Origin: Elusimicrobia bacterium CG_4_9_14_3_um_filter_62_55
GTDB lineage: Bacteria > Elusimicrobiota > Elusimicrobia > UBA1565
Direction: 5' to 3'
Assembly: GCA_002790095.1 (NCBI GenBank)
Contig: PFUL01000197.1
Coordinates: 1 to 53,920, forward strand
Length of the DNA: 53,920 bases
In this document: positions 34,471 to 50,750 of the stretch, in pieces
Position numbering within the stretch: position 1 is the first letter of the stretch
Layout of the letters: each line of letters begins with the position of its first letter
Translations under genes and position numbers: made by a program
The notes under the pieces: model-generated
What the model saw: the letters and a program-made list of their open reading frames with translations, nothing else
Told to the model about the DNA's origin: nothing
The model's database searches: none

Positions 34471-34496
34471 CCACTTTGCGCTACCCTATCGCATCG

Positions 34497-34988
34497 ATGA
34501 CCATACCTCCCGGCCTCCCGAAACCGCCCGCGCCGCGCACGGCGTTCGTCACCAGCCTCGGATGGACCGGCCTGATCGGCGGCGCGCTCAGCGCTCTGAC
34601 GGGCGTCATGGAATGGTTCGCCGCCCGCCCGTTCGCCGAGCAGGGGTTCATCGACATCGTCCTCAAACTCAAGCAGTACGCCGTTCTCTCCTGGGTCGGC
34701 GCGATTCCGACTCTGATTTTTTCCTGGGGCGTACTGCACCGGCGGGAATGGGGGCGCAAGGGGATGCTGGTTCTGATCGCCGTCGCGGTCTTGGCGCATT
34801 TGGCGCTGCTCCCGACGCTGCGTCAGGCCTTCGCCGGCGCGGGAGAACTCGCGCCGGGATCGCTTCTGGAAGCCGTCCTTAATACCGCGAAGTGGACGAC
34901 CTACGGCGCGCTGGCGGTCGCGACCGCGGTCATGCTCTGGCTCGGCCGCAAGCTCGCGACCTCCCCGGTTAAGGACGAATTCTGCTGA
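34497..34988 (+). CDS. Four-helix membrane protein of unknown function
   Basis: 163 residues from the ATG at 34497 (a TTG at 34476 is in frame but lacks support). There are four hydrophobic segments, about 20-40, 60-78, 85-107 and 130-150, including VTSLGWTGLIGGALSALTGV, LSWVGAIPTLIFSWGVLH and GMLVLIAVAVLAHLALLP. I do not recognise the family. Its last codons (PVKDEFC) and stop lie inside a repeat that reads, on the other strand, as the C-terminus of AroQ. The natural 3' end may therefore have been shaped by recombination. Confidence 0.75.
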   Translation: MTIPPGLPKPPAPRTAFVTSLGWTGLIGGALSALTGVMEWFAARPFAEQGFIDIVLKLKQYAVLSWVGAIPTLIFSWGVLHRREWGRKGMLVLIAVAVLAHLALLPTLRQAFAGAGELAPGSLLEAVLNTAKWTTYGALAVATAVMLWLGRKLATSPVKDEFC

Positions 34989-34993
34989 GCAGC
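34942..34993. repeat. aroQ-3'-end repeat, copy 1
   Basis: 52 bp that recur at 36214-36265 with only two mismatches. The last 28 bp (34966-34993) are identical to 50723-50750, the true 3' end of aroQ. The core contains GGACGAATTCTGCTGAGCAG. On the minus strand it reads LLSRIRP-stop. Confidence 0.95.
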
Positions 34994-35295
34994 GCCATGT
35001 TCCCGTAGTTTTGCCTGATCAACGGCGTCTTGTTTCGCGCTTTGTGCGCGATGCTCGAACGAACCGGCAACTGTCCCCGGGGACAGTTGCTCTCGATTGA
35101 AATTTCCGTCGCGGCATGCACGCGCGTGATGCGCGGGAGCGCGGCGCCCGGAGCCTGCGGGCGGGAAGTCCTTTACGCCGAAGACGACTCTCGTATTTCC
35201 CCTCGGCGCGCCTGCGCGCCGAGGCCGGACGCCCCCCGCGGGGGCGTCCGCGCCGTTGGGGGCATTCAGCCCTTGAAACTACGGGAACATGGAGT
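34994..35295. mobile_element. MITE-like element with 17-bp terminal inverted repeats and nested palindromes
   Basis: CCATGTTCCCGTAGTTT (34995-35011) and AAACTACGGGAACATGG (35276-35292) are perfect inverted repeats. The 10-bp sequence GCTGAGCAGC flanks the unit on both sides (34984-34993 and 35296-35305), like a target duplication. Inside are several hairpins. A perfect 24-bp palindrome lies at 35069-35092 (half-site GCAACTGTCCCC). CCTCGGCGCG pairs with CGCGCCGAGG at about 35201-35224, and GGACGCCCCC pairs with GGGGGCGTCC at about 35227-35249. There is no plausible gene inside. It would have to be mobilised in trans. The region 34989-35361 otherwise holds only the next gene's promoter. Confidence 0.75.
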
Positions 35296-35329
35296 GCTGA
35301 GCAGCCTGGCTAAAAATCAAGGAAGTGGG

Positions 35330-35361: not shown

Positions 35362-36201
35362 ATGCGGCTGCCCCATCATGTCATGGCGTTCATCGCGGCG
35401 GCTTTGATTCCCGCTTCGGCGGCTTCGGCGGGATCGAGGCAAACCGAATGCTTCAGCGGATTCCATCAGTGCATGCGCGAGAATAAAGGACAGATGAAGA
35501 TGTGTATGGAGCGCCGCGACGCCTGCATGAAGGGGGAGAAGCCCTCCGGCGAGGCCGGGAAGCCGAAGAAAGTTCCGTCGCCGTTTTTGAACATCGAATG
35601 CAGTAAGAAATATTCGAAGTGCATGGGACAAAGGAAGGCGAATAAGAAACTATGCGACGATGCCCACTCGCGCTGCCGGCGCGGGGAGGAGGAAGAAGCG
35701 CCGTCAGCCGCAAAGGGGAGAGATGGGAAGACGGACACTCCCGCGGCGAAGAAGAACCCAAAAAAATCCGTCGAGACAAGGCCGGCCGACAAGCCGCGCG
35801 GGGTCCGGATCGGGGGGACAAGCACGAAAGGCATCGACGGCCCTTGCTGGACGATGAACGTTTCGAAGAAGACTTGCGCCGAGTGGAAGTCCGAAAAGTG
35901 CAAAACGATGGGCAACGCCTTCCGCACGAACGACGACTGCGCGGCCTGCCTTAACGACTACCGCCTTCCCATGGGGAAAGTTGCGCAGCCCGTTTTTCAG
36001 TATGTTCAGATGATGAAGCTCTGCAAAGAGGAGCGGCGCGACCTGGACAAACTCGAGGAGTGCATCAAAACGATTAAGGACGCCGACGAGCGGGCGGCCA
36101 GCCGGAAATACCTCGAGGCCCAACGGGCCATCGACGGCATCGTCGCCGACGCCAAGGCCAGCGGCATTCACGGCTGCGGCAATTTTTCGAGGGTTCGCTG
36201 A
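35362..36201 (+). CDS. Secreted cysteine-rich protein with an exact CX6CX10CX6C internal repeat
   Basis: 279 residues with a signal peptide (about 1-23). Two copies of the same cysteine spacing occur 50 residues apart: C30, C37, C48, C55 and C80, C87, C98, C105 (for example ECFSGFHQC and ECSKKYSKC). The spacing suggests two disulfide-stapled helical hairpins. A Lys/Glu/Ala-rich linker (about 107-150) follows. The C-terminal domain has eight more cysteines (GPCWTMNVSKKTCAEWK, CKTMG, DDCAACLNDYR, MKLC, LEECI, HGCG). I do not recognise the family. Disulfides imply an extracytoplasmic location. The gene stands alone between two aroQ-end repeats. Confidence 0.8.
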   Translation: MRLPHHVMAFIAAALIPASAASAGSRQTECFSGFHQCMRENKGQMKMCMERRDACMKGEKPSGEAGKPKKVPSPFLNIECSKKYSKCMGQRKANKKLCDDAHSRCRRGEEEEAPSAAKGRDGKTDTPAAKKNPKKSVETRPADKPRGVRIGGTSTKGIDGPCWTMNVSKKTCAEWKSEKCKTMGNAFRTNDDCAACLNDYRLPMGKVAQPVFQYVQMMKLCKEERRDLDKLEECIKTIKDADERAASRKYLEAQRAIDGIVADAKASGIHGCGNFSRVR

Positions 36202-36213
36202 CCGGCCCGCGTG

Positions 36214-36265
36214 TCGGCCGCAAGCTCGCGACCTCCCCGATCAAGGACGAATTCTGCTGAGCAGC
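36214..36265. repeat. aroQ-3'-end repeat, copy 2 (hybrid junction)
   Basis: 50 of 52 bp match copy 1 at 34942-34993. Its right flank continues as an AroQ-like C-terminal coding sequence on the minus strand, whereas its left half resembles the 3' end of the membrane-protein gene at 34497-34988. Confidence 0.93.
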
Positions 36266-50722: not shown

Positions 50723-50750
50723 CGGTTAAGGACGAATTCTGCTGAGCAGC
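50723..50750. repeat. aroQ-3'-end repeat, copy 3 (native aroQ end)
   Basis: 28 bp identical to 34966-34993, covering the AroQ C-terminal codons LLSRIRP, the stop and the first bases beyond it. It lies at the promoter-side edge of the surface operon; copy 2 lies at the other edge. Confidence 0.95.

Follow-up and report, generated by a model that had tools for sequence, protein, structure and literature searches.

The window, a stretch of 53,920 nucleotides, is contig 66 of a 4.3-Mb, 202-contig draft genome from the Elusimicrobiota. Between ORF 34476-34988 and ORF 35362-36201 it contains a short element with inverted repeats at its ends, which is flanked by a direct repeat and carries a perfect palindrome and two GC-rich hairpins (Table 1). 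Most of this architecture had been described in a sequence-only reading, and it holds: the terminal inverted repeats are 100% complementary, and the two GC-rich stems were located near the right end. The flanking direct repeats are present, with a length of 11 bp rather than 10 bp, and the palindrome lies two bases from the position first given for it (35069-35092). Folding of the whole element gave z-scores of -8.3 (RNA) and -8.8 (DNA), with none of 200 shuffled sequences folding as well, in agreement with the multi-armed fold that had been proposed. No substantial ORF lies inside the 301-bp element, in which no stop-free stretch exceeds 95 codons. The element is short, lacks a transposase gene, has terminal inverted repeats and a target duplication and is present in many copies, and we classify what had been called a non-coding, mobile-looking unit as a MITE.

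Table 1. Features of the window element and its insertion site, with the positions of nested and related elements.
Feature	Position	Strand	Remarks
MITE, GCCATGTT...AACATGGAG, 301 bp	34994..35294	+	sequence comparison and copies in genome
Target-site duplication, left copy, 11 bp, TGCTGAGCAGC	34983..34993	+	
Target-site duplication, right copy, 11 bp, TGCTGAGCAGC	35295..35305	+	abuts -35 box
Terminal inverted repeat, left, CCATGTTCCCGTAGTTT	34995..35011	+	17 nt, 100% complementary to right one
Terminal inverted repeat, right, AAACTACGGGAACATGG	35276..35292	-	17 nt
Inner arm AACGGCG	35021..35027	+	pairs with 35251-35257 in fold
Inner arm CGCCGTT	35251..35257	+	pairs with 35021-35027 in fold
Perfect 24-bp palindrome GCAACTGTCCCCGGGGACAGTTGC (halves GCAACTGTCCCC/GGGGACAGTTGC)	35067..35090	+	core retained in many copies
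Right-end hairpin 1, GC-rich, CTCGGCGCGC CT GCGCGCCGAG	35202..35223	+	covaries with relatives
Right-end hairpin 2, GC-rich, GGACGCCCCC CGC GGGGGCGTCC	35227..35249	+	covaries with relatives
-35-like hexamer CTGGCT	35306..35311	+	3 of 6 to consensus; abuts right duplication
-10-like hexamer TATAAA	35330..35335	+	18-nt spacer; 26 nt before ATG of ORF 35362-36201
Gene downstream of predicted targeted promoter	35362..36201	+	279 aa, cysteine-rich, no confident family
Nested ~101-bp element, L118	G000:C125:63174-63274		
Nested ~101-bp element, L024	G000:C184:70-90		
G002 subfamily	L134, L145, L147, L149, L151		predicted to be promoter-adjacent at 3/5 sites

The sequence-only reading had called for a genome-wide search, with a single copy as the outcome that would speak against mobility; the element proved to be multicopy. 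Searching the draft genome with the window element returned 32 matches in about 20 places. Among them, about 14-16 count as clear copies, either complete or partial; these are 77-100% identical over the matched part and lie at unrelated sites. Element sizes vary from 185 to 347 bp. Several contigs terminate within copies, as expected because repeats break assembly. The draft genome also contains a second family, with ends (CCAAGTTTCCATAGTTTGG) that are related to those of the window element and an interior that differs; in G001:C110, from the same genus, a 369-bp relative is flanked by a 9-bp duplication (GGGATTTCC).

Further variants were seen alongside these copies. A related family in the draft genome (L113-L119) lies at a contig end in at least six cases (G000 C19, C48, C69, C97, C119 and C145), and some of its copies contain the 24-bp palindrome CTTTATAGGCGATCGCCTATAAAG. 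A second miniature element of about 101 bp (GGAAGCTGTGAAAAAATCCCC ... GGGGATTTTTTCACAGCTTCC) is nested in the left part of two elements. In G002, contigs C8, C28, C35, C40 and C49 carry a subfamily whose ends are CTCCATGTTCCCGGGGTTTG and which includes the long palindrome TCCTCGAATTGCCGGCCGTTCGGCAATTCGAGGA.

The two right-end stems were compared across 14 right ends from several genomes, and 96.8% of the pairs are retained. Double changes occupy 19 cells, against 7.9 in shuffled alignments and near zero when the stems are slid; the rows are related, so these counts are not independent events, and most changes fall at three positions. Judged from these alignments, the right-end stems are conserved as structure. 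The strong fold and the covarying hairpins are also what a structured non-coding RNA gene or a regulatory leader would show, but we regard such an identity as very unlikely for an element that has target duplications, faces promoters in either orientation and occurs in several sizes. A known RNA family was considered and rejected, as no Rfam match came near its threshold. A scan for terminator-like sites found none at the hairpins. As a guess, the hairpins may keep outside transcription out of the element, or may shield the promoter.

In G005, a genome of the same family, a right end identical in kind to that of the window element, including both hairpins, recurs many times. On contig C121 of this genome a window-type right end with its hairpins directly follows the C-terminus of an IS4-like transposase, a C-terminal fragment that is the one place where such ends are joined to a transposase. 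Relatives of this protein in G018, G032, G024 and G020 are IS4-like transposases, and a scan of the genome contigs with the transposase returned three relatives only. G032:C60 contains a complete 1607-bp autonomous element that encodes an IS4-like transposase between perfect 22-bp inverted repeats and is flanked by an 8-bp duplication (GGGCTCCC). The autonomous element of G018:C25 has related ends and an 11-bp repeat (TGCCTCGAAGC), the left copy of which sits 11 bp off the left element end, a discrepancy that we count against the overall reading. The ends of the MITE are thus shared with autonomous elements by way of the G005:C121 fragment and the related ends in G032 and G018; no complete autonomous copy with window-type ends was seen among the relatives' contigs. 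A transposase bordered by the same ends had been suggested as a thing to look for; in relatives, ends of this kind border an IS4-like enzyme. In the element's own draft genome no relative of the IS4-like transposase was found, which counts against our reading, and the sole DDE_Tnp_1 match there, which we take to be an IS1634-like transposase, lacks these ends.

The transposase matches DDE_Tnp_1 (E=5e-13), as do all three transposases compared. It is encoded by a single ORF and carries the YREK signature as Y-(2)-R-(3)-E-(6)-K (Y358, R361, E365, K372), and its catalytic residues D141, D239 and E365 are spaced by 98 and 126 residues; the IS4 family is defined by the YREK signature and D(60-110)D(100-150)E spacing (PMC2266710). 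The best score against the curated NCBIfam IS4 families is 59 bits, compared with a cut-off of 115, and all cut-offs were missed; the ends, CTCCA[TA]G, fit no subgroup in the published IS4 table (PMC2266710). We therefore describe the parent as IS4-like, without a known subgroup. Target duplications in these elements are 7-11 bp long, mostly 7-9 bp, while those of IS4 elements are typically around 10 bp, about one helix turn (8-13 bp) (PMC2266710). A search of solved structures with the transposase profile gave no match, and the AlphaFold model of the transposase, with a mean pLDDT of 41, was too low in confidence for use.

From its half-site ACTGTCCCC, the element had been likened to repeats moved by REP-associated tyrosine transposases. 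Like REP elements it is short, non-coding, palindromic and present in many copies, and six Y1_Tnp genes are found in its own genome. Unlike REP elements, which to our knowledge lack long inverted repeats and target duplications, it has both, and ACTGTCCCC is absent around all six Y1_Tnp genes; the proposed link is therefore unsupported. The ends are instead common to an IS4-like DDE element, and we give mobilisation by a REP-associated tyrosine transposase almost no weight. A REP/RAYT origin was rejected in the same comparison, no Y1 transposase gene among the six being flanked by the same repeat.

The insertion sites have a common feature. In a first set of 68 distinct outward flanks, scored with a sigma-70 matrix, 36 contain a predicted promoter, and in 31 of these 36 the distance from the CNTGG end out to the first base of the -35 box is 11-14 nt (about 9-12 nt if counted from the AG tip), a range that covers 4 of 39 possible offsets (p=5e-26). 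The -35 box alone and the -10 box alone each peak in this set (p about 1e-11 and 2e-11). The rule had been noticed by eye in these flanks, as TTGAC followed by a -10 box near element ends; it was fixed and then tested on a fresh set of 56 new flanks, with ends retrieved by a pattern search of 235 genomes belonging to the class (a reversed control pattern returned none). Here 34 flanks contain a predicted promoter, at 11-14 nt in 27 (p=5e-21). When the two sets are pooled, giving 124 distinct flanks of element ends from about a dozen genomes, 58 have a predicted sigma-70-type promoter at the target offset, against 1.1% of random window positions; that about half of the ends qualify would be expected if nearly every element has a promoter next to one end or the other. 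As a control for targeting, another repeat family offered two copies only. At L254 (G024:C66) and L252 (G024:C64) a strong predicted promoter lies outside the 11-14 range, at offsets 3 and 8, which may reflect deletions or an alternative target spacing.

Both junctions were available for 18 insertions, eight of them read whole and ten paired through a matching duplication across contig ends, a pairing that is inferred. A predicted promoter (score >=6) is present on one side only in 14 of the 18. At L023/L017 the two sides score 5.2 and 5.6, both middling values, and the scores are weak on both sides of L202, L160 and L013; the flanks of the old copies L013 and L015 contain no clear promoter, which counts against the rule. 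In two cases (L011; C48/C96) an older element end is followed by a duplication, a newer element and then that duplication again, all upstream of one predicted promoter. Such tandem rows would be expected if a promoter can be hit repeatedly. Insertion could instead be random, with only those copies surviving that lie upstream of promoters, since insertions disrupting genes would be lost. Survival alone predicts any upstream distance, but the offsets cluster within a peak of 3-4 nt in each of the two independent sets, and re-insertion in tandem has occurred at the same bases; we disfavour this explanation strongly.

The window copy itself lies just upstream of the likely promoter of ORF 35362-36201, as far as matrix scoring can tell. 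This predicted promoter scores 8.0, a value attained by 0.33% of random positions. It escapes a strict consensus scan, and its weak -35 box counts against our reading. The element had been thought to have hit a repeat hotspot at GCTGAGCAGC. The flank does lie in GCTGAGCAGC, but we read GCTGAGCAGC as merely the sequence that precedes this promoter, and other copies duplicate sequences unrelated to that of the window copy, their common feature being a predicted promoter 11-14 nt outside the element. The supposed hotspot is thus most likely the promoter, and the element most likely came to lie at GCTGAGCAGC because the promoter of ORF 35362-36201 is located there. A 52-bp repeat ending in GCTGAGCAGC (34942-34993 and 36214-36265, 96% identical) forms the 3' end of ORF 34476-34988 and recurs after ORF 35362-36201. 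An exact 23-bp part of it occurs a third time at 50728-50750, a copy without a match in the own-genome element search. This repeat is a matter separate from the placement of the element.

The flanks also bear on what is recognised. Where TTGAC occurs at the target offset, a -10 box follows 16-18 nt on in 27 of 35 flanks, against 14 of 294 occurrences elsewhere (4/94 in the window and 10/200 in relatives). Whole promoters therefore appear to be targeted, although selection against insertion in genes could contribute. The transposase might read DNA only, preferring a short GC-rich duplication followed by TTGAC, so that the promoter would be a mere carrier of the hexamer and RNA polymerase would have no part. 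The enrichment of C immediately before the -35 box in element flanks would suit such a preference, as would the insertion specificity described for IS231 of the IS4 family (PMC2266710), and loss of in-gene insertions could add to the association with -10 boxes. The strength of that association speaks against it, as do the many flanks in which a poor -35 box (CTGGCN, TTGCNN) is paired with a good -10 box; we consider recognition of DNA alone rather unlikely, yet a serious contender. The helper could also be a different transposase, for example a Mutator-type relative of ISKra4, as ISKra4 and ISLre2 target promoters (PMC3942029) and no helper is visible in the element's own genome. Only IS4-like transposases were found between such ends, the transposases have no Mutator-family match at E<=1, and G005:C121 joins a window-type right end to an IS4-like protein, all of which makes another helper improbable.

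With a probability of roughly 85%, we conclude that the window feature is a MITE with the ends of an IS4-like (DDE_Tnp_1, YREK) family of Elusimicrobiota, which inserts at a constant position with respect to sigma-70-type promoters. The number of copies, the inverted repeats and duplications, the transposase-linked ends, the fixed promoter distance and the hairpin covariation were computed here; from them we infer mobilisation in trans, in which an IS4-like transposase would act on the CTCCATG/CTCCAAG-type inverted repeats of the MITE. The element would be cut and pasted into DNA about one DNA turn ahead of the promoter, with a duplication of 7-11 bp whose right-hand bases immediately precede the -35 box. 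Promoter and gene would thereby stay intact, with the upstream DNA displaced by the length of the element. Since both would survive insertion, elements could accumulate without host death, which is in keeping with the many copies and contig breaks. The target would be chosen by the transposase touching either promoter-bound RNA polymerase or promoter DNA. We tentatively propose, at a little under even odds, that a new IS4-like branch has independently evolved polymerase-guided insertion. Its transposase would dock on promoter-bound RNA polymerase, at sigma region 4 or at the alpha C-terminal domain, and insert into the single helix turn that precedes the -35 box. If so, promoter docking would, together with the Mutator-type elements, be a recurrent bacterial strategy, comparable to that of yeast Ty3. 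The element ends may serve as markers of likely promoters in Elusimicrobiota genomes.

Like members of the IS4 family (IS231, ISH8 and IS4Sa subgroups), the parent elements combine a DDE_Tnp_1 match, the YREK signature and D-D-E spacing in a single ORF with inverted repeats of some 18-22 bp. MIC231, mobile cassettes derived from IS231, are non-autonomous derivatives sharing ends, and the MITE is likewise a non-autonomous derivative with the ends of IS4-like elements. Unlike in IS4, the ends are CTCCA[TA]G rather than CAT, CA or AAT, the scores fall under every curated NCBIfam cut-off for IS4, duplications are 7-11 bp long and insertion occurs beside predicted promoters. Promoters are nowhere mentioned in the IS4 review (PMC2266710), and we found no report of promoter targeting by IS4-like elements, in a literature search largely confined to open papers, which is not proof of absence.

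TnGBS, ISLre2 and ISKra4 insert 13-17 bp upstream of sigma-A promoters by means of Mutator-like transposases for which contact with the polymerase has been proposed, a behaviour termed unusual for prokaryotes; with the near-symmetric inverted repeats of Mutator-like elements, the promoter can lie next to either end (PMC3942029). The window-type family likewise inserts at a fixed distance upstream of predicted promoters, at 11-14 nt from CNTGG or about 9-12 nt from the AG tip rather than 13-17 nt. It is not a member of that group, as its parent transposase belongs to a different superfamily, without a Mutator-family match. That an IS4-like lineage also directs its insertions to promoters points to convergent evolution and offers a second system for asking how a transposase finds promoters. 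By this comparison, promoter seeking is shared by a transposase lineage that has no kinship with those already known for it.
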